Of a DNA stretch of 33,370 nucleotides, positions 3,416 through 21,654 are shown piece after piece; the stretch's first letter is position 1; each line of letters begins with the position of its first letter. The notes under the pieces were generated by a model. The model was not told where the DNA came from. It saw only the letters and a program-made list of their open reading frames with translations, and did not search any database. This DNA is from Chloroflexota bacterium (GTDB taxonomy: Bacteria > Chloroflexota > Dehalococcoidia > Lucifugimonadales > UBA3495): NCBI GenBank assembly GCA_002721995.1, contig PBMF01000033.1, forward strand, positions 1 to 33,370. Reading direction: 5' to 3'. The position numbers were made by a program, and so were the translations under genes.

Positions 3416-4657
3416 ATGAACCGGCAACCTACCCAGTCCACCGAAACAGTCTCCCGCCTACAGGGTATGACCGACCTTTCCGAGGAGTCCTGGCGCAGCA
3501 AACAGGAACTCCAGGAACGGCTGCGCCAGCTGCTGGGCGAGTACGGCTATAGGCTGCTGGAGACCCCGGTGCTGGAATCCACCGAACTATTCCTGCGCAA
3601 GTCCGGCGGGGAACTGGCCTCCCAGTTGTACAGCTTCATCGACTCGGGCAGTAACGCAGTGAGCCTACGCCCCGAGTTCACCTCGCCCATCATGCGGCAT
3701 TATCTGGAGAACGCTTCCGGCATCGATCTGCCGGCGCGGTGGCAGTACTGCGGGCCGGTATTCCGCTACGACTCCTCCCACCCAGAGGCCAGCGGCCAAT
3801 TCACCCAGGTGGGCGGCGAACTCATCGGCTCATCCGATGTTACTGCCGACGTGGAACTGCTCAAGCTGGCCGTGGCGGTGCCCAACAAACTGGGCTTGGA
3901 CGGTTGGAGCCTGCGTCTGGCCGATCTGGACATCCTGAACAGACTCCTGGACTCGGTGGGCGTTTCCGACCGGGCCCGGTCCTTCATCATCCAGAGCATG
4001 CCCCTCCTGCGGGAGGGACGCACCGCCGTGCCCAAGTTCCTGGAAGAGGACAGGCACCTGCACGTTGTGGGCGGCAACGGGTCCAATAATGGGGGCTCGG
4101 GTGACTCTGAGGACGCGGCGCTGCGTCAGGCGGTGAAGGGCCTGGACGACGACCAGGCAAGGTCCGTGCTGCTGGGACTGCTGCAATGGAACTCGGCCGA
4201 CCAACTGGGCCAGCGCACCCCCGAAGAGGTGGTGGAGCGGCTGCTCCACAAGATTCGCGGCACAGACAGCGAAGATAAATTCCGCCAGGGACTGGAACTT
4301 GCCAGCGACCTGGCCGCCATCAACGGGCAACCTCCCCAGGCCTTAGACGCCGTGAAAAAGGTCCTGGCCTCCGCTGGATCCGACCAGAGTGCCGCCGACC
4401 GTTTGACCGAGGTCATAGGCCTCATGTCCAACGGCGGGGAATCCAAGGGCCGGCTGGTGCTGGACTTTGGTCTGGTGCGCGGACTGGCCTACTACAACGG
4501 CGTGATATTCGAAGTGAGTCACCCTGGCTGGCCCGGCGCTCTGGGCGGCGGCGGCCGGTACGACACTCTCTCCCGGGCTCTGGGCGGCGAAAACGCCGTA
4601 CCGGCCCTGGGATTTGCCTACAACCTGGACGCATTGATCTCTTTGGGCGCAAGCTAG
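3416..4657 (+). CDS. hisZ: ATP phosphoribosyltransferase regulatory subunit HisZ
   Basis: Histidyl-tRNA-synthetase-like protein of 413 residues that serves as the regulatory partner of ATP phosphoribosyltransferase, the first step of histidine synthesis. The class II synthetase core is seen in LLETPVLESTELFLRKSG, SLRPEFTSPIMR (motif 2 region) and QVGGELIGSS. LVRGLAYYNGVIFE and GGGGRYDTL correspond to the histidine-binding region of HisS. The anticodon-binding domain of true HisRS is missing, and the gene opens a his operon, so HisZ is far more likely than HisRS. A low-complexity Gly/Asn/Ser insert lies near residues 221-230. The ATG at 3416 lacks a clear Shine-Dalgarno. hisG starts 6 bases after the stop. 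Confidence 0.88.
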   Translation: MNRQPTQSTETVSRLQGMTDLSEESWRSKQELQERLRQLLGEYGYRLLETPVLESTELFLRKSGGELASQLYSFIDSGSNAVSLRPEFTSPIMRHYLENASGIDLPARWQYCGPVFRYDSSHPEASGQFTQVGGELIGSSDVTADVELLKLAVAVPNKLGLDGWSLRLADLDILNRLLDSVGVSDRARSFIIQSMPLLREGRTAVPKFLEEDRHLHVVGGNGSNNGGSGDSEDAALRQAVKGLDDDQARSVLLGLLQWNSADQLGQRTPEEVVERLLHKIRGTDSEDKFRQGLELASDLAAINGQPPQALDAVKKVLASAGSDQSAADRLTEVIGLMSNGGESKGRLVLDFGLVRGLAYYNGVIFEVSHPGWPGALGGGGRYDTLSRALGGENAVPALGFAYNLDALISLGAS

Positions 4658-4663
4658 AAGACA

Positions 4664-5689
4664 GTGGCTGAACAAGACCAAAATAACGGACAGGGCCCGC
4701 TGCGGATCGTCCTCCCCAGCGACGGCGAACTGTACGACTCGACCCTGAGCTTCATGCGGGCCTGCGGCATGCCGGCCTCCCGGCCCAACGCGCGCCGCTA
4801 CACCGGCTCGGTCCCATCCATTCCCGGCGTCGAGGTACTGTTCCAGCGCTCCGGCGACGTGACCCAGAAGGTGGAAGAGGGCAGCGCCGAACTGGGCGTA
4901 ACGGGCCTGGACAGGGTGCTGGAATACCGCAACGACGAGTCCAGGGCTGCGGTCCTCATAGAAGACCTGAGGTTTGGCCGCTGCGAGTTCGTCATGGCCG
5001 TCCCCAACTCATGGATGGACGTGACATCCCTCTCCGACCTGGCCGACCTGGCCCTGGAGTTCCGCCAAGAAGGGAAACAACTCCGCATCGCCACCAAATA
5101 CCCCCGTCTCCTGCGCAGTTACCTGTTCGAGCGGGGCATCAACTACTTCACCCTAGTGCCAGCCAGCGGAGCAATGGAAGCGGCCCCTGCGGCAGGCTAC
5201 GCCGACCTCATCGCCGACCTAACCGCCAGCGGCGTGACCCTGCGTGAGAACCAGCTAAAGACCCTGGACGAAGGCACGATCCTCGCCTCCCAAGCCTGCC
5301 TCATCGCCAACCCGGAACTGCTGTCAGCCTCGAAGAAAGCATTGGGCCTGGCCCGCTCCATCGTCGAGTTGATGGAGGGCCACCTGAGGGCCGAGCCCTT
5401 CTACCGGGTCACCGCCAACGTGCGCGGGACATCGCCCGAGGAAGTAAGTTCCACCGTGCTGGCCCGTCCCGATCTGGCGGGACTGCGCGGACCCACCGTG
5501 GCCCGGGTCTACAACGTGGAAGAGCAGGACTGGTTCAACGTGAGTCTGCTGGTGCAGAAGGACCAGCTTTTGGAGGCCGTCGACCACCTCCGCGACTGCG
5601 GGGCCGTTGATGTTGCCGCCTCCCAGTTGAGCTACCTGTTCGACGGGCACTCCGAGGCCTACAAGACACTTTTCGGCGAAGGCGCGTAA
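4664..5689 (+). CDS. hisG: ATP phosphoribosyltransferase, long form with C-terminal regulatory domain
   Basis: Catalyses ATP + PRPP to phosphoribosyl-ATP, the committed step of histidine synthesis. The GTG start at 4664 follows hisZ by 6 bases. The 341-residue protein contains the catalytic blocks LGVTGLDRVLEY and DLIADLTASGVTLRENQL (PRPP loop). From about residue 240 it has the HisG_C regulatory region (VRGTSPEEVSSTVLARPDL, then VSLLVQKDQLLEAVDHLRDCG). Short-form HisG (about 210 residues) normally needs HisZ, whereas long-form HisG normally works alone as a hexamer; here a long form sits beside hisZ. The last stop is two bases before the next ATG, so the genes are translationally close. Confidence 0.93.
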   Translation: MAEQDQNNGQGPLRIVLPSDGELYDSTLSFMRACGMPASRPNARRYTGSVPSIPGVEVLFQRSGDVTQKVEEGSAELGVTGLDRVLEYRNDESRAAVLIEDLRFGRCEFVMAVPNSWMDVTSLSDLADLALEFRQEGKQLRIATKYPRLLRSYLFERGINYFTLVPASGAMEAAPAAGYADLIADLTASGVTLRENQLKTLDEGTILASQACLIANPELLSASKKALGLARSIVELMEGHLRAEPFYRVTANVRGTSPEEVSSTVLARPDLAGLRGPTVARVYNVEEQDWFNVSLLVQKDQLLEAVDHLRDCGAVDVAASQLSYLFDGHSEAYKTLFGEGA

Positions 5690-5691
5690 GT

Positions 5692-6447
5692 ATGCCCAAC
5701 CTGCCGATGCACATACACCTGGCCAACCAAGTGGCCGAACAACTGGACCGCAGCTACGTCTTTGACCATATGGGCGCCTACTACCTGGGCTCGACCGCTC
5801 CGGATATCCGCGCCATGACCCGGTGGCCCAGGGAGCAGACCCACTTCGCACCCCTCTCGGTGGAGGAAGTGGGCACCGGCACCAGCACCATGTTCCGGAT
5901 GCACCCGGAACTGCGCGAGGATATGTCGCCGGCGTCTCGGGCCTTCCTGGCGGGCTACGTCTGCCATCTGGCCGCCGATGAGGTCTGGATCACCAGCGTC
6001 TTCCGGCCCCATTTCGATACGGCCGAAGAAAGCCGGTTGACGGACGACCAGATCGAAGCCAACATTTGGGACCGAGCCATGCAATTGGACATGGACCGCC
6101 AGGCCTTGCCCCAGATCAACGGCGACGCCCACCCGGAAAAGTGGCTGGCCTGCTCCGACCACAATGTGTCCATGCCCTTCTTCGAAGACGGCCTACTGGC
6201 CGAATGGCGAGACCGCGTCGGCCGGTTCCAGGTCTGGGAATTCACCTGGGAGCGGTTGAAAGGCGCACTCAACCGGTTGTATCGTGATGACGAAGATGTG
6301 CAAAAGACGGTGGGCCGCTTCCTGGAAGGGATGCCCCGCAGCCTGGAACAGGTCTACGAAAAAGTACCCGAGGGGGACGTGACGGCCTACCAAGAACGGG
6401 CATTGGCCGCCACTATAACCCAGGTCCGGGGATTCGTGCCGGACTAA
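5692..6447 (+). CDS. Zinc-dependent phospholipase C-like protein
   Basis: A 251-residue protein that resembles the zinc-dependent phospholipase C family (PF00882-like). Seen in sequence: HIHLANQVAEQL at the N-terminus, GAYYLGSTAPDIR, a THFAPL histidine, and GYVCHLAADEVW, the spaced His/Asp residues expected of a trinuclear zinc site. No signal peptide or membrane segment is visible, so it is probably cytoplasmic. It begins 2 bases after hisG and ends 23 bases before hisD, so it is embedded in the histidine operon. It has no known role in histidine synthesis. It might be a metal-dependent hydrolase acting on another phosphoester; substrate unknown. Confidence 0.75.
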   Translation: MPNLPMHIHLANQVAEQLDRSYVFDHMGAYYLGSTAPDIRAMTRWPREQTHFAPLSVEEVGTGTSTMFRMHPELREDMSPASRAFLAGYVCHLAADEVWITSVFRPHFDTAEESRLTDDQIEANIWDRAMQLDMDRQALPQINGDAHPEKWLACSDHNVSMPFFEDGLLAEWRDRVGRFQVWEFTWERLKGALNRLYRDDEDVQKTVGRFLEGMPRSLEQVYEKVPEGDVTAYQERALAATITQVRGFVPD

Positions 6448-6470
6448 CAGCGTAGGATTGGAGAAACCTT

Positions 6471-7811
6471 TTGGCCCTTAACGTGATACATGGAGTCCAG
6501 AACGCACAAAACGTCCTGGTCCGCATAGACCCCCTGGACATGGACTCGCTGCCCGAGACGGTCCTGGCCCGCACCGAGGAAGCCTTCGGCAAGGGCGTGA
6601 CCGCCGAGCAGTCGGTCCTGCAGATGCTGGGCGACGTGCGCCGGGAAGGCGATGCCGCAGTTTTGCGCTACGCCAAGCTCCTGGACGGGTCCGACCTGGA
6701 GGAGTTCCGCGTTACCGAGAAGCAGATGGCCCAGGCCAGGGATTCCATCAGCAAAGACTTGCACGAGTCCCTGGAACTTGCCGCCCAACGGGTACGGGAC
6801 TTCCACCAGGCCACCATGCCCGGCGAGTGGGTGGACCGGGAGCAGGGCTTGGGTGAACTGGTACGCCCCCTGGACCGGGTGGGCCTCTACGCCCCCGGCG
6901 GCAGCGCCGCCTACCCCTCAACCGTGCTGATGACCGCCGTCCCCGCCAGGGTCGCCGGTGTGAATGAAGTCATCCTCTGCACTCCGCCGCTGCGCGGTGA
7001 AGCGCTCAACCCCGCCGTGATGGTCGCCGCCGAGATAGCGGGCGTTGACGCCTTGTACCAGGTGGGCGGCGTGCCCGCCATTGCGGCCATGGCCTACGGC
7101 ACCGAGTCTGTGCCCAAGGTGGACAAGATCTGCGGGCCGGGCAACATCTTCGTGGCCTACGCCAAGAAGCTGGTCCAAGGCCAGGTGGACATCGACGGCG
7201 TCTTTGGCCCCACTGAGACCATCGTCCTGGCCGACAAGACGGCCAACGCCAGTTTCTGCGCCGCCGACCTGATCGCCCAGGCCGAACACGACCCGCTGGC
7301 CACTGCCATCCTGATCACCGACAACCAGGACCTCATCGACCGGGTGGAAGCCGAGGTCGACCGTATGATAGCAACCCAACCCCGGGGCGACGTCGCCAAG
7401 GCGGCGCTGGACCGGCAGGGACGGGTGGTCTTGGTGGACTCCCTGGCCGAAGCCGTGGACCTGGTCAACAACATCGCCCCCGAGCACCTCTGCCTGCTGC
7501 TGGACGACCCCTGGTCCTGGGCCGGCAAGATCAAGCACGCCGGCGGACTGTTCCTGGGTGAGTTCTCCCCGGAGGTAATGGGCGACTACATCGCCGGCCC
7601 CAGCCACGTGATGCCCACCGGAGGCACGGCCCGGTTCGGGTCGGCCCTCAGCGTGCACCATTTCCTACGGACCATGCCGGTGGTTGGCCTCAGCCCCGCT
7701 GAGTTCCAGAAACTGGGCAAAGCCGCCGTGCACATCGCCGACGCCGAAGGACTGACCGGACACGCCAGCGCCATCCAAGTCAGGCTGGATTCCATCGCCA
7801 AGAGCGCCTAG
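6471..7811 (+). CDS. hisD: Histidinol dehydrogenase
   Basis: Zinc enzyme that oxidises L-histidinol to L-histidine in two NAD-dependent steps, the last steps of the pathway. The 446-residue product has GLYAPGG, KVDKICGPGNIFVAYAKK, GPTETIVLAD, DLIAQAEHDP (zinc-binding Gln/His region) and NIAPEHL, with the catalytic E338 and H339. The C-terminal block is GGTARFGSALSVHHFLR. The TTG start at 6471 is preceded by GGAG at 6460-6463. The N-terminus is slightly longer than in most homologues (usually about 430 residues). hisC follows after 2 bases. Confidence 0.97.
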   Translation: MALNVIHGVQNAQNVLVRIDPLDMDSLPETVLARTEEAFGKGVTAEQSVLQMLGDVRREGDAAVLRYAKLLDGSDLEEFRVTEKQMAQARDSISKDLHESLELAAQRVRDFHQATMPGEWVDREQGLGELVRPLDRVGLYAPGGSAAYPSTVLMTAVPARVAGVNEVILCTPPLRGEALNPAVMVAAEIAGVDALYQVGGVPAIAAMAYGTESVPKVDKICGPGNIFVAYAKKLVQGQVDIDGVFGPTETIVLADKTANASFCAADLIAQAEHDPLATAILITDNQDLIDRVEAEVDRMIATQPRGDVAKAALDRQGRVVLVDSLAEAVDLVNNIAPEHLCLLLDDPWSWAGKIKHAGGLFLGEFSPEVMGDYIAGPSHVMPTGGTARFGSALSVHHFLRTMPVVGLSPAEFQKLGKAAVHIADAEGLTGHASAIQVRLDSIAKSA

Positions 7812-7813
7812 AT

Positions 7814-8929
7814 ATGACCCAGAACAACGGACAGGATATGCCCGCGATGCTGCCCCACATCCAGGCCCTGAACACCTACGAGGGCGTGGACCCCATGGAG
7901 GTTATGGCCGAGCGGGCCGGCATCGCCCCGGACAAGATCATCCGGTTGAACGGCAACGAGAACCCCTACGGGCCGTCTCCCAGGGTGTCTGACGCCCTAG
8001 CCAACTTCCAGAATTTCAACCACTATCCCGACCCCGACCAGCGCAACCTGCGCCGGGTGCTGTCGGGCTACATGAATGTGCCCCCGGAAATGCTGGTGGC
8101 GGGCAACGGCAGCGACGAGATGATCGACCTGCTGCTCCGCATGTACGTGGGCATCGGCGACAATGTCATCGCTCCCACACCCACTTTCGGCATGTATTCC
8201 TTCTCCACCGGCATCTGCGGCGGTGAGACCATCTCCGTGGAGCGGGACGAGAATTTCGAGATTGACCTGGAGGCCATGAAGGCCGCCATCACCTCCAAGA
8301 GCAAGATCATCTTCCTGACCTCACCCAACAACCCGACGGGCAACATCGTGCCCGAAGCCCAGACCAGGGCCCTGTTGGACACCGGCCTGCTGGTGGTCAT
8401 GGACGAGGCCTACTTCGAGTTCTGCGGCGAGACCGCCACGCCCCTCCTGTCCGAATACAAGAACCTGGTGGTGCTGCGGACGTTCAGCAAATGGGCCGGC
8501 CTGGCCGGTCTGCGCATCGGCGTGGGCGCCATGGACCCCAGTCTGGCCGCCACCATGATGGCGATGAAACCGCCCTATAACGTGAACCTGGCGGCCGAGG
8601 TGGCCCTGACCACATCCCTGGAAGACACGCCGGGATTGCTGGAAAGGGTGCAGCAGATCGTCACCGAGCGGGATCGGATGATGGTTGAGTTGGACAAGAT
8701 ACCCAACCTGACTCCCTGGCCGTCCCGGGCCAACTTCATCCTGTGCCAGGTGCCCGAGGGACGGGGCAAAGAGATATTCGACGGCCTGTGCAGCCGGGGG
8801 ATCTTCCTCCGTTACTGGAGTTCGGGCCGGTTGAAGGACTATATCCGCACCAGCATCGGCTTGCCCCACGAGACCGATGCCGTGGTGCAGGCTTTCGCGG
8901 AGTTGTGTGGAGGAAGTGATGCCGCCTAG
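7814..8929 (+). CDS. hisC: Histidinol-phosphate aminotransferase
   Basis: PLP-dependent class I/II aminotransferase that converts imidazole acetol phosphate and glutamate to histidinol phosphate and 2-oxoglutarate. The 371-residue product has NENPYGPSP near residue 50, GNGSDEMIDLL, SPNNPTGN, DEAYFEF and the Schiff-base lysine K226 in RTFSKWAGLAGLRIG. The final arginine for substrate carboxylate or phosphate binding is in DYIRTSIG. The ATG at 7814 follows the hisD stop by 2 bases. The 3' end overlaps the start of hisB by 11 bases, which suggests translational coupling. Confidence 0.96.
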   Translation: MTQNNGQDMPAMLPHIQALNTYEGVDPMEVMAERAGIAPDKIIRLNGNENPYGPSPRVSDALANFQNFNHYPDPDQRNLRRVLSGYMNVPPEMLVAGNGSDEMIDLLLRMYVGIGDNVIAPTPTFGMYSFSTGICGGETISVERDENFEIDLEAMKAAITSKSKIIFLTSPNNPTGNIVPEAQTRALLDTGLLVVMDEAYFEFCGETATPLLSEYKNLVVLRTFSKWAGLAGLRIGVGAMDPSLAATMMAMKPPYNVNLAAEVALTTSLEDTPGLLERVQQIVTERDRMMVELDKIPNLTPWPSRANFILCQVPEGRGKEIFDGLCSRGIFLRYWSSGRLKDYIRTSIGLPHETDAVVQAFAELCGGSDAA

Positions 8930-16425: not shown

Positions 16426-16527
16426 TCGCAGAATTGGTTGACGGCCCAAGCACCCGTTGCTAGGATTTCCCCAATCCCCGGGTGGAGGCGGTCTCCACCA
16501 AATCCCAAACAACAAGGACTATTTGCC

Positions 16528-18837
16528 ATGACTACCACAGAGCGGACAGAGGCCCAAGGCGCACTGCGCGGAATGCAGGTGCTGGAATTCGGCCAGTACA
16601 TCCCCGGCCCCATGCTGGGCATGCTGCTCTCCGACCAGGGGGCGGACGTGATCAAGGTGGAGCGTCCCGGAGGCGACCCCGCCCGCAGTGAACCGGCCTT
16701 CGCCACCTGGAACCGGGGCAAACGCTCGGTGGTCCTAGACCTGAAGACTCCGGAAGGGCAGGCCTCCGCCCAAGCGCTGGCCAAGAAGGCCGACATCGTC
16801 ATCGAGAACTACCGGCCCGGCGTGGCCGACCGCCTGGGCATCGGCTACGACGCTCTGTCCAAAGAGAACCCCGGCCTGCTCTACTGCTCCATACCCGGCT
16901 TCGGCGAGGACAGTTCCCACCGGAACGAGCGGGGCTGGGAGAGCATCGTCGCCGCATCCACAGGCGTCTATCAGCATGTAGACGGGGCCGATGAACCCCT
17001 GTTCCTGCCCCTGCCCGCAGCCAGCACCTTCGCCGCCCTGGTGTCCGCTGTATCGGTGACCATGGCCGCAGTGGCCCGGGACCGCACCGGCAAGGGACAG
17101 CGCATCGAAGTGCCCATGCACAGCGCCATGTTCTCGGCCATCGGCAGGCACCTGGTCAAGCTATACGACATCAACCCGCCGGACCTTTTCAACCTGCCCA
17201 GAAACGTCATGTCCCACCAGTACCAGTGCGCCGACGGCCGGTATTTCCAGTCCCACGGTATGTACCAGCGGTTCGTAAGCCAGTTTATGACCGCCGCCAA
17301 CCGTCCCGAGTGGGTCGACGAGCTGCAGGCCCTCTACGGCGAGGACGTCCCCGACGAGACCATCGCCATGTGGAAGGACCGGTTCGAGAAGATGTACGCC
17401 GAGCGCACTGCCCTGGAATGGGAGGACGCCATCGCCGAGGCCAAGGGCGTGGGCACCATCTGCAAGACCATCGAGGAATGGCTGGTCCATGAGCACGCCA
17501 TCGCCGGCAAGATGGTCCGTGAGATTGACGACGCCCAGTACGGAAAGATGAAGCAGCCCGGCGTCCAGGTACGCCTGCGGGGCACCCCCGGCGAGATCCA
17601 GGGACGCGCTCCCAAACTGGGTGAGCACACCGACGAGATACTGGCGGAGATCAAGAACGGCTCCGCACCCCTGGCCGCGTCCAAGGCCGGCGGCGAAAGC
17701 ATCATGCACGCCCTGGAGGGCCTCAAGGTCATCGACCTCTGCATCGTGCTGGCCGGTCCCACCTGCGGCCGGACCCTGGGCGAATTCGGCGCCGAGGTCA
17801 TCAAGATCGACGACCCGGCCCGCCCCTACGACGTCGCCGGCAACACCGACGTGAACCGGGGCAAGCGCAGCATCCAGATCAACCTGAAGACCAAAGAGGG
17901 ACTCGAAGTCTTCTACAAGCTGCTGGAGACCGCCGACGTGGTGGTGGAGAACAACCGCAAAAGCAGCCTGGCCCGCCTGGGCATCAGCTACGAGGAGATG
18001 AGCAAGCGCAAGCCCGACATCATCCACGCTTCGCTGAACGCCTTCGGTTACGACGGCCCCTGGAGTGAGCGGCCCGGCTGGGAACAATTGGCCCAGGCGA
18101 CCAGCGGCATCCAGGTGCGGCGCGGCGGCCGGGATTCGGCCCCCCAGTTACTGCCCTACCCCATGAATGACTACGGCACCGGCCTCATGGGCGCCTACGC
18201 GGTGGCCCTGGCCGTCCACGAGCGCAACCGCACCGGCAAAGGGCAGCGGGTGGACAGCGGTCTGGCCCTCACCGCCGGCCTGCTGCAGTCGCCCTACTTC
18301 CTGGACTACGAGGGCTACGTCCGGGACGAGCCCGAGGGCCTGGGCGTCCGTGGTTTCTCAGCCAAGTCCCGGCTCTACAAGGCCGCCGACGGCTGGATGT
18401 TCCTCCACTGTCCGGACGATGAATCCTGGGCCAACCTGGCTAAGCTTTCAGAGTTCTCCAGCGTCGCCGCCAATGGCAATGACGAGGCCCTGACGGAATC
18501 TCTGACCGAGATTCTGGCCGGCAAGGGCCGGGATGAATGGGCCAACTTAATCAATCCCACGGGCGTCAGCGTCATCGCCAACCGCGAGGTCCATCATTTC
18601 CGAGACGACCCCGATATCCGCAAGGCGGGACTCATAGTGGAGCGGGACCATCCCGGCATGGGCAGAGCCGACCATCTGGGCTCGGTCGCCCGTCTGTCCG
18701 AGACTCCCATGCGGGTGGGCCGGCCGACGCCCCTCCTTGGCGCCGAGACCGATGAGATCCTCACCGAGCACGGCTACACCGGGGAGCAGATCGAAGCCAT
18801 GAAACTGTCCGGGGCTGTGGTCCAGCACCAGTCCTAA
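16528..18837 (+). CDS. Tandem (double-domain) class III CaiB/BaiF CoA-transferase
   Basis: A 769-residue protein with two complete family III CoA-transferase domains. The first covers about residues 12-390 (MQVLEFGQYIPGPMLG, NRGKRSVVLDLK, GFGED). The second covers about 392-769 (LKVIDLCIVLAGPTCGR, NRGKRSIQINLK, GYDGPW). Such enzymes move CoA between carboxylic acids through an aspartyl anhydride. The catalytic Asp is present in the second domain (D548 in PMNDYGTG), but the aligned position of the first is Ser (S166 in PAASTFAA). Only the C-terminal half should therefore be catalytic. The start is the ATG at 16528 (MTTTERTEAQG); the upstream extension to 16438 is not family-like. The acid substrates are unknown. 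Confidence 0.9.
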   Translation: MTTTERTEAQGALRGMQVLEFGQYIPGPMLGMLLSDQGADVIKVERPGGDPARSEPAFATWNRGKRSVVLDLKTPEGQASAQALAKKADIVIENYRPGVADRLGIGYDALSKENPGLLYCSIPGFGEDSSHRNERGWESIVAASTGVYQHVDGADEPLFLPLPAASTFAALVSAVSVTMAAVARDRTGKGQRIEVPMHSAMFSAIGRHLVKLYDINPPDLFNLPRNVMSHQYQCADGRYFQSHGMYQRFVSQFMTAANRPEWVDELQALYGEDVPDETIAMWKDRFEKMYAERTALEWEDAIAEAKGVGTICKTIEEWLVHEHAIAGKMVREIDDAQYGKMKQPGVQVRLRGTPGEIQGRAPKLGEHTDEILAEIKNGSAPLAASKAGGESIMHALEGLKVIDLCIVLAGPTCGRTLGEFGAEVIKIDDPARPYDVAGNTDVNRGKRSIQINLKTKEGLEVFYKLLETADVVVENNRKSSLARLGISYEEMSKRKPDIIHASLNAFGYDGPWSERPGWEQLAQATSGIQVRRGGRDSAPQLLPYPMNDYGTGLMGAYAVALAVHERNRTGKGQRVDSGLALTAGLLQSPYFLDYEGYVRDEPEGLGVRGFSAKSRLYKAADGWMFLHCPDDESWANLAKLSEFSSVAANGNDEALTESLTEILAGKGRDEWANLINPTGVSVIANREVHHFRDDPDIRKAGLIVERDHPGMGRADHLGSVARLSETPMRVGRPTPLLGAETDEILTEHGYTGEQIEAMKLSGAVVQHQS

Positions 18838-19322: not shown

Positions 19323-19449
19323 TCGAACACCGGTCCGCCGTTCCTGTCCGGTTAGCCGCCCAGGCCCCTTTTCCTTATGGCAGCCACGTCTGGAACGTGC
19401 TAAACTGCCCCAACGCCTGCGGGCGTAACCTCAGGTAGAAGAGGTCCCT

Positions 19450-21654
19450 TTGCTCCGCATCTACAACACCCTGGCAAAACGGGTTGAAGAGATTCACCCA
19501 ACCACGCCGGGGCTCATCCAAATGTACACCTGCGGCCCCACCGTGTACCGCGACGCCCACATCGGCAACATGCGAACCTATCTCATGGCCGATTGGGTAC
19601 GCCGCTCTTTGGTGCACAGCGGGCTGGAAGTAAAACACATAAAGAACATCACCGACGTGGGCCACATGCGCCAGGAACTGGTGGAGGCCGGCGGCGACAA
19701 GATGATCATGGCGGCCCTGGCCGAAGGCAAGACGATTCAGGAAATCGCGTCCATGTATTCGGAGCGGTTCCACAGGGACGAGGCCCGTCTCAACATCCTT
19801 GAGGCCCACGAATTCCCCTGGGCCAGCCACCACATCCCAGAGATGCTGACCATGGTGGAGACGTTGGTTAAGAACGGCCACGCCTATGAGAAGGGCGGCA
19901 ACCTCTATTTCGACGTTCCCTCCTTCCAGGACTACGGCAAGCTCTCCCGCAACACCGGCGCCGACCTGCTGGAAGGCGTGCGATCCGAAGCCGACCCCCT
20001 GAAACGCGACCCCAGGGATTTCACGCTGTGGAAGGCCGCCGAAGAGGGCCGGGACGTTAAGTGGGACAGCCCGTGGGGCCCCGGGTTCCCCGGCTGGCAC
20101 ATCGAGTGCTCGGCCATGGCGTCCAAGTACCTGGGAGAGAGTTTCGACATCCACACCGGGGGCATCGACAACGTATTCCCCCACCATGAAGATGAGATTG
20201 CCCAAAGCGAGGCCGCCTTTGGGCATCCCCACGTGAACTACTGGGTCCACGGGCAGCATCTGCTGGCCGACGGCGCCAAGATGGCCAAATCGGCGGGTAA
20301 CGTCTTCCTCATCGAAGAACTCATCGAAAGGGGTTTCTCGCCCCTTTCCTTCCGCTACCTGTGCATGACCATCATGTACCGGCACCGGATGAATTTCACT
20401 TTCACCTCGCTGAAAGCCGCGGAGAAAGCCTTGACCGGGCTGCGCCAGAGGATATGGCTCTGGAGCCAGGAGCCGGAGGTGAACAACCACGGGACAGAGG
20501 TCGAAGAGTACCGGCAACGGTTCTGGAACACGGTGGAAGACGATCTGGACCTGCCCGGCGCTGTGGCCCTGACCTGGGAGATGGTGCGCTCTGAACTGCC
20601 TGGACGCGCTAAGATGGACCTGCTTCTGGAGTTTGATCAGATGTTCGGGCTGGACCTCGACAGGGCTCCGGCGGAACTATCCCCGGCGGCAGAAGTTTCC
20701 GCCGCCCTGAAGACCAGGGCCGGCCACCGGGAAAAGTCAGACTACGCCACCGCCGATTCACTGAGAGGCCAACTCGCCTCGGATGGATATCTGGTGGAAG
20801 ACACCCTCAACGGGACCCGCGCCCGCCCCAAGACTCCGTTGGAACTGAAGCATGAGAAGTGGGCCTCGGTGTCTTCAGCGCGCGAGGTCGAGTCCTATCT
20901 GGACCGGCCTGCCGATCTGGACTTCACCTTCATCCTCAACGCCTATGGGTACCCCAGCGACGTGAAACGGTGTATCGAAGGCATGCTGAACCACACCGGA
21001 GACCATTCGGTGGAAGCCATAGTTATTGACAACGGCTCAACCGACGGCACCGGGGAACTGCTGGAGGAGATGCAGGAGCAGCACCCAGCCCTCCGGGTCA
21101 TCCACTGCGACCACGTCATCGGCGACGCCGCCAGCAAGAACATCGGCCTGATGCAAAGCCGGGGCCGTAACATAGTGGTATTGGATGGGTCCGCTGAGAT
21201 CACCGGCAACATCCTGGACCCGGTCTCGCGCACCCTTGAAGACCCCACGGTGGGGATCTTCGGACCCTGGGGCCTCAGCACCCCCGACATGCAGCACTTC
21301 CACGAAGAAGTTGACGAGGGCGATGCCGACGCCATGCAGGCCTACTGTATGGCCTTCCGCCGCGAAACGGTGAACACCGTGGGTCTGATGCGGGAATGCT
21401 TCCGGTTCTACCGCAATCTGGATATCGACTACTGTTTCCAGTTCAAAGACAAGGGGTTCCGGGTGGTCGCCGACTCCTCTCTGCCCCTGGTCCGGCATGA
21501 ACACCGCCAGTGGACGGAATTGGACGATAATCAGCGGGATGAGCTGAGCCGAAAGAACTTTGGCCGGTTCTTGAAGCGCTGGGGTAACCGTCCTGACCTG
21601 CTCCTGGCGGCCGACGCTGTGGGATTCGAGAACCAGGCCCGCTATCATCACTAG
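19450..21654 (+). CDS. cysS: Cysteinyl-tRNA synthetase fused to a family 2 glycosyltransferase domain
   Basis: Residues 1-460 form a full class I CysRS: C28 in YTCGPTVY, HIGN (37-40), C220 in HIECSAM, H245/E249 in PHHEDE (zinc site), KMAKS (277-281) and the C-terminal EDTLNGTR. After a linker, residues 491-700 look like a GT-A glycosyltransferase 2 domain: FTFILNAYGYPSDVKRCIEGM, IDNGSTDGTGELL (527-539), DAASKNIGLMQSRGRNIVVLDGS and a later CMAFRRETVNTVGL. The usual DxD metal site reads LDGS (578-581), so catalysis by the second domain is uncertain. The reading frame is continuous, with no stop and no good internal start. The TTG at 19450 has GAGG upstream and gives the conserved N-terminus. 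The total of 734 residues is well above the usual 460-500. Confidence 0.93.
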   Translation: MLRIYNTLAKRVEEIHPTTPGLIQMYTCGPTVYRDAHIGNMRTYLMADWVRRSLVHSGLEVKHIKNITDVGHMRQELVEAGGDKMIMAALAEGKTIQEIASMYSERFHRDEARLNILEAHEFPWASHHIPEMLTMVETLVKNGHAYEKGGNLYFDVPSFQDYGKLSRNTGADLLEGVRSEADPLKRDPRDFTLWKAAEEGRDVKWDSPWGPGFPGWHIECSAMASKYLGESFDIHTGGIDNVFPHHEDEIAQSEAAFGHPHVNYWVHGQHLLADGAKMAKSAGNVFLIEELIERGFSPLSFRYLCMTIMYRHRMNFTFTSLKAAEKALTGLRQRIWLWSQEPEVNNHGTEVEEYRQRFWNTVEDDLDLPGAVALTWEMVRSELPGRAKMDLLLEFDQMFGLDLDRAPAELSPAAEVSAALKTRAGHREKSDYATADSLRGQLASDGYLVEDTLNGTRARPKTPLELKHEKWASVSSAREVESYLDRPADLDFTFILNAYGYPSDVKRCIEGMLNHTGDHSVEAIVIDNGSTDGTGELLEEMQEQHPALRVIHCDHVIGDAASKNIGLMQSRGRNIVVLDGSAEITGNILDPVSRTLEDPTVGIFGPWGLSTPDMQHFHEEVDEGDADAMQAYCMAFRRETVNTVGLMRECFRFYRNLDIDYCFQFKDKGFRVVADSSLPLVRHEHRQWTELDDNQRDELSRKNFGRFLKRWGNRPDLLLAADAVGFENQARYHH

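Follow-up and report, generated by a model that had tools for sequence, protein, structure and literature searches.

A single open reading frame on the forward strand of the window, by which we mean the whole 33,370-nucleotide stretch that was analysed, encodes a cysteinyl-tRNA synthetase (CysRS) that continues into a glycosyltransferase family 2 (GT2) domain, and comparison with related genomes confirms that this fusion is real. Our preferred reading, held tentatively and at somewhat less than an even chance, is a two-headed tRNA-Cys enzyme, in which the CysRS would charge the tRNA and the GT2 domain would most likely glycosylate the tRNA held by the anticodon-binding domain (ABD).

Architecture of the fusion gene

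The features of the gene, in coordinates of the window, are as follows.

19437..19444, + strand: likely ribosome-binding site AGAAGAGG, shortly 5' of the TTG (putative, assigned by eye)
19450..21654, + strand: CysRS-GT2 fusion gene, 734 aa, TTG start, stop included
19450..20424, + strand: CysRS catalytic domain, residues 1-325 (Pfam tRNA-synt_1e at 16-325, motifs, conservation)
19558 and 20278, + strand: HIGN at residue 37 and KMAKS at residue 277, in the CysRS catalytic domain
In the CysRS catalytic domain, + strand: zinc residues C28, C220, H245 and E249 (conservation), which we take to be the CysRS zinc ligands
20689..20805, + strand: CysS_C anticodon-binding domain (ABD), residues 414-452 (Pfam; R423, R427, Y432, D436, R439, D451)
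20827..20916, + strand: linker, residues 460-489, the end of which reads VESYLDRPAD
20923..21603, + strand: GT2 / GT-A domain, residues 492-718 (Pfam, PDB profiles, Foldseek on a low-confidence model)
In the GT domain, + strand: IDNGSTDGTGELL at residue 526, with IDNGSTDG starting at the corresponding position 21025 (motif reading)
21184-21192, + strand: DxS replacing DxD (LDGS at residue 578), with D658, H683 and H685 also in the GT domain

The frame at 19450-21654 contains no N and zero internal stops. A near-full-length fusion in one open frame was found in 44 of the 60 nearest genomes, the genome of the window included, which rules out an assembly join or a chance frame. A 45th genome, G002, matches over residues 366-734 only, and the other 15 of the 60 are without the fusion. 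The first-pass annotation had described a genuine in-frame fusion of a complete CysRS, with HIGN, KMAKS and the zinc ligands, to a GT-A-like domain whose DxD is degraded to LDGS. The 734-aa frame and its conservation in relatives bear out the first point. The others held as well: the motifs are present and the columns of C28, C220, H245 and E249 are kept in 34/34 fused rows of the CysRS alignment, the second domain is matched by Pfam Glycos_transf_2 (48.6 bits, cut-off 23.3, 1e-12) and by PDB profiles (best E 1.6e-17, the relatives being ordinary GT2 enzymes), and S581 recurs in 61 of 70 other fused rows. The last denominator refers to 71 fused rows left of 110 matches after removal of duplicates and of rows with X, the window row serving as reference.

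Distribution and conservation

The genus has 12 members, and each is one of the 45 nearest genomes with a match. Among 196 sampled genomes of the class, with the best 5 to 8 candidates considered for each, 19 others carry a near-full-length fusion and one more, G118, carries it with a broken frame. The fusion is also present in other families of Chloroflexota and in 31 of 36 chosen genomes of that phylum. The search for the same architecture in other genomes, proposed in the first-pass annotation as a check, was positive in the nearest genomes, the class and the phylum alike. Separate genes in relatives, which the annotation would have read as the sign of an artefact, do occur, although in distant relatives only, where the split is informative and does not indicate an artefact. 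A tree built from 92 CysRS domains groups the 34 fused ones as one clade (SH-aLRT 98). The GT half had a lower dN than the CysRS half in 10/10 pairs with the window (e.g. 0.052 vs 0.089), a comparison made with dS near saturation and with one pair lacking a dS value.

Gene neighbourhoods are conserved group by group, and among them we found no partner common to all groups and no tRNA-modification pathway. MeaB lies downstream of the fusion in the family of the window, ETF and carboxyltransferase are the conserved neighbours in another family, and CRP-like, FtsH and sigma factor genes are the conserved neighbours of the separate proteins in the phylum of G518 (a 'Frankiales' MAG). An M3 oligopeptidase is the conserved neighbour in genomes with proteins of the Ktedono type, our nickname for one group of separate proteins mostly from large genomes. 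Two other parts of the window may be recorded here. Positions 16438-18837 form one 799-aa ORF with two tandem CoA-transferase family III domains, and positions 3416-8929 hold a histidine-biosynthesis-like run of HisRS-like, HisG with a C-terminal domain, histidinol dehydrogenase and aminotransferase genes.

The CysRS half and the second CysRS

The alignment of residues 1-459 of the window protein with E. coli CysRS runs from end to end, in the same numbering. The fusion is matched by Pfam tRNA-synt_1e at 2e-97, by TIGR00435 (cysS) with 410 bits against a cut-off of 340, and by CysS_C with 23.4 bits, just above the Pfam cut-off of 23. All catalytic and zinc columns of CysRS are kept in 34/34 fused rows or nearly so. 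We accordingly read the N-terminal part as a cysteinyl-tRNA synthetase that would be functional, activating cysteine and charging tRNA-Cys with it.

The genome of the window encodes a second, ordinary CysRS on a different contig (G000:C9), a 496-residue frame with KMSKS and a C-terminal domain of its own, 41% identical to that of the fusion. A further CysRS-like match was obtained in 44 of the 45 fusion-bearing nearest genomes (in G025 as a fragment only), the exception being G006, which is 78% complete. More distantly, a search at 1e-20 did not find a second CysRS in the fusion genome G344.

The anticodon-binding domain and its free-standing relatives

The contacts to G34 in E. coli CysRS are R423, R427, W432 and D436, according to PMC12684709. 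In the fusion, R423, R427, D436 and D451 are kept in 70/70 other fused rows, and position 432 is aromatic (Y/F/W) in 69/70. The same four residues are kept in 12/12 and 9/9 proteins of two separate Chloroflexota groups and in 20/20 of the phylum of G518, and position 432 is aromatic in 12/12, 9/9 and 20/20 of them. The G34-reading residues (R423, R427, D436 and the aromatic 432) are therefore complete in 41/41 separate ABD-GT2 proteins from two phyla. MshC apparently works without tRNA (PMC2922099), and MshC-like proteins are for this reason a useful control for the ABD; they have none, and R423 was found in 0/10 of them. These patterns suggest that ABD-GT2 proteins bind tRNA.

The same GT domain is also present in proteins that lack the CysRS catalytic domain, where a CysRS-type ABD nearly always precedes it. 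When the GT domain was searched in 301 Chloroflexota genomes, with the best 5 to 8 candidates considered for each, 85 had a match at 1e-15, and the 29 other loci listed from this search comprised 18 fused and 11 unfused ones. For most of the unfused loci the alignment with the window protein starts at about residue 402-422, which makes the CysRS anticodon-binding domain the first part of these proteins. Of 246 genomes in the phylum of G518, 31 matched at 1e-20, again among the best 5 to 8 candidates each; nearly all of these matches run from the ABD onward, and separate proteins of about 300 aa start right at it. CysS_C scored above the Pfam cut-off in 6/6 scanned proteins from that phylum and was reported in three of eight odd or Chloroflexota proteins. 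By eye, the VESYLDRPAD end of the linker resembles the corresponding stretch of many separate ABD-GT2 proteins. In a tree of the ABD-GT part the fused rows group well, although not strictly as one branch (3 changes).

Several unusual proteins were seen among these loci. L331:795-1907 (G498:C3) is a Peptidase_S51-like protein ending in a CysRS-type anticodon domain, with both Pfam matches above cut-off, and L151:1480-3333 (G510:C108) appears by eye to join the N-terminal domain of L331 to an anticodon domain and a GT2 domain. It may be that the CysRS anticodon domain moves as a module among several enzymes. Two further loci look like eroded relatives. L338:803-2434 (G489:C1) has scraps of CysRS ahead of GT2, an intact fusion being present elsewhere in G489. 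L334:373-2514 (G400:C208) is a CysRS-GT2 fusion without a recognisable anticodon domain and counts against our best explanation.

One CysRS clade goes with the ABD-GT2 proteins

In a tree of 107 CysRS (from which 15 of the 34 fused rows were dropped for size, the MshC-like L323 for its long branch and L053 as the same gene as L395), the fusion falls in one clade with SH-aLRT 97. The clade also holds the unfused CysRS of Chloroflexota bearing ABD-GT2, namely G510, G317, G498, G469, G398, G321 and the genome of L034, the last of which was searched for its ABD-GT2 only after its CysRS had fallen in the clade. In the phylum of G518, a clade CysRS was found in 11/13 genomes with ABD-GT2 vs 2/11 without (Fisher p 0.003; on adding G515, 3/12 without and p 0.005), where the p-value overstates the association because rows of the same lineage are not independent and the MAGs are incomplete. 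These 24 genomes had been hand-picked before their CysRS were seen, as 13 of the 31 with ABD-GT2 and 11 of 20 listed without it. The individual departures are G532 and G711, which have ABD-GT2 and yielded no clade CysRS, and G515, G525 and G529, which have the clade CysRS and no ABD-GT2 that we found; none is known in G069 either. In that last genome, L132 (G069:C39) shows tandem CysRS genes, one of the ordinary and one of the GT-associated clade, without a GT2 domain.

The unfused CysRS of the clade is the sole CysRS match at 1e-40 in 7 genomes, and members of the clade can therefore evidently serve as the housekeeping enzyme, which lends indirect support to the putative charging of tRNA-Cys by the fusion. 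Read from this single tree, the fusion would have arisen once, from the CysRS clade associated with ABD-GT2.

Search for tRNA-Cys

None of the 38 tRNA matches in the genome of the window was called Cys by ARAGORN, which was applied to 26 of the 30 tRNA loci listed (the other four overlap these) and on 8 further stretches of a MAG that is 88% complete. A tRNA-Cys pattern matched in 48 of 60 relatives, mostly at one tRNA-Cys-like site each and alike in relatives with and without the fusion. Two such sites were present in G050 and G039, and some extra pattern matches look like chance. We had considered a private second, odd tRNA-Cys as the substrate of the fusion and rejected it, there being none among the tRNA matches of the own genome and mostly one site in each matching relative; a tRNA with another anticodon could still play this part. 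The weakest tRNA match, L268 (G000:C9:38267-38340, 38.8 bits, no ARAGORN gene), looks by eye like a decayed Gly-type tRNA.

The glycosyltransferase domain

The first D of the DxD, D579, is kept in 69/70 fused rows. Position 581 is S in most of them and D in none of the 111 rows of the full alignment, so that a DxD is absent throughout. None of the 111 rows has lost N564, D658 or R638, and nearly all of them have E583 and G558. The fused rows also retain H685, Y654 and R655, together with W688 in 69/70, and the picture is similar in two groups of separate proteins. D579 and H685 are kept in all or nearly all rows outside the Ktedono-type subfamily. Alignment with chondroitin synthase places D658 at the ED Asp, whereas alignment with 6p61 does not. 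Overall, catalysis by the GT domain is plausible. The 12 Ktedono-type proteins have lost H685, W688 and Y654 in 12/12 cases, R655 in 11 and D579 in 4, and therefore at least this subfamily may be inactive.

The structure prediction that the first-pass annotation had proposed was useful in one respect, as Foldseek on the low-confidence model returned GT2 matches, and failed in another, as confidence was too low to place the GT domain on a tRNA. The model of ABD-GT alone (3 sequences) had a pLDDT of 58.6 and the full-length model one of 78.5, with values <50 at residues 604-661 and with alignments that were thin over the GT part.

These residues bear directly on the first alternative, which holds that the GT-A fold is no longer enzymatic and has become a tRNA- or protein-binding module helping the clade CysRS to hold or select tRNA-Cys, in cis or in trans. 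We regard this as unlikely, although it deserves serious attention. It would agree with the degradation of DxD to DxS and with the larger losses of the Ktedono-type proteins, and the co-occurrence with one CysRS clade suits an accessory factor. However, the other groups have retained D579, E583, D658, H685, Y654 and R655, which goes beyond the needs of a scaffold, and nothing in the 7 genomes where the clade CysRS stands alone shows that it needs help.

Proposed function

Under the two-headed reading, the ABD would hold the anticodon of tRNA-Cys through G34, and charging of the 3' end would fall to the CysRS head. A short linker separates the ABD from the GT domain, which we expect close to the anticodon end of the tRNA. 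There the GT domain would most probably transfer a sugar, or a similar group carried by a nucleotide donor, onto a nucleoside of the anticodon arm or its surroundings. Because ABD-GT2 is also free-standing in other bacteria, we treat the two domains as a unit with tRNA-Cys as substrate or platform, and it is mainly the retention of the ABD even without the synthetase head that suggests tRNA-Cys as the business of the GT domain. Sugar transfer is read here from the fold only, and the tRNA would be its probable acceptor. With more reserve, we consider it possible, if doubtful, that ABD-GT2 proteins are widespread, undescribed bacterial tRNA-Cys-specific glycosyltransferases with a borrowed anticodon reader, which accompany a single CysRS clade in two or more phyla and which in Chloroflexota have joined with its CysRS in one protein that can both charge tRNA-Cys and attach a sugar to it.

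If instead the GT domain used the charged product, placing a sugar on the cysteine of Cys-tRNA (e.g. on its thiol) or passing the cysteine into a glycoconjugate, one substrate would serve both heads, and SunS, a GT2 enzyme that glycosylates cysteine thiols, would be a precedent. In class I synthetases, however, the anticodon-binding domain is far from the charged 3' end of the tRNA; the GT domain is joined behind the ABD, and separate ABD-GT2 proteins have no charging head, which makes this use of cysteine improbable. We give similarly little credence to an ordinary polysaccharide or protein glycosyltransferase joined to CysRS by happenstance. The PDB profile relatives are indeed of that ordinary kind, and in Ktedono-type genomes the separate gene has a nucleotidyl transferase and MurJ nearby, but no polysaccharide operon was found near the fused gene, and an unrelated function would not need the ABD residues that separate proteins of two phyla have kept. 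Least probable is an enzyme for a low-molecular-weight thiol or sugar-cysteine cofactor, in which the GT domain makes the sugar part and the CysRS-like head adds cysteine, like MshA and MshC for mycothiol: MshC, a CysRS relative, does ligate cysteine to an amino sugar (PMC2922099), yet the fused CysRS fall outside the MshC-like clade, they keep the anticodon reader in 34/34 rows against 0/10, and the anticodon domain of the separate GT proteins would be of no use to a tRNA-free ligase.

The first-pass annotation had offered a glycoconjugate, a thiol cofactor and tRNA modification as possible functions. tRNA modification is the one we favour, as the relatives without CysRS keep the ABD beside the same GT domain; the thiol cofactor is disfavoured by the MshC-like proteins of these phyla, which are separate and without an ABD. 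If the two-headed tRNA-Cys enzyme is correct, genome architecture alone would have pointed to an unusual, synthetase-linked tRNA-modifying enzyme and perhaps to a new bacterial tRNA glycosylation. It could explain why these Chloroflexota keep two CysRS enzymes, and it makes testable whether a specially modified tRNA-Cys goes with one CysRS clade, including the genomes where that clade is the sole CysRS match.

Comparison with known systems

The fusion shares with E. coli CysRS (PDB 1li5/1u0b) class I motifs, the zinc residues and an anticodon domain with the G34-reading residues, in an alignment that runs from end to end over residues 1-459, and differs from it in a C-terminal GT2 domain of about 230 residues, in KMAKS for KMSKS and in having a second CysRS alongside. 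With GT2 enzymes (chondroitin synthase 2z86/2z87, the Leptospira protein 6p61, GalT1 5hea) it shares the GT-A sequence profile, whereas its GT domain has DxS for DxD and is attached to a CysRS ABD with or without the synthetase. The annotation knew of no described function for such a fusion, and our search of the literature on synthetase fusions and paralogues and on tRNA glycosylation, with most subscription journals and bioRxiv outside its scope, likewise found no description of the architecture.

Queuosine-glycosylating tRNA enzymes and GluQ-RS decorate anticodon nucleosides of queuosine tRNAs (Tyr, Asp) with sugars or an amino acid. We know of no link between them and tRNA-Cys or CysRS; the proposed likeness lies in the decoration of an anticodon nucleoside, and the difference in tRNA-Cys as the presumed substrate here. 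MshC (PMC2922099) is likewise a CysRS relative put to a non-standard use. MshC-like proteins belong to another clade and lack the anticodon domain, whereas the fusion keeps it and scores 220.6 bits with TIGR03447 (MshC), below the cut-off of 485. A further parallel in design is the fungal fusion of AspRS to an MprF-like transferase (PMC2922099), in which a synthetase likewise shares its chain with another enzyme acting with the tRNA of that synthetase; the partner there is a peptide/lipid ligase using the charged tRNA, whereas here it is a GT-A domain placed behind the ABD.
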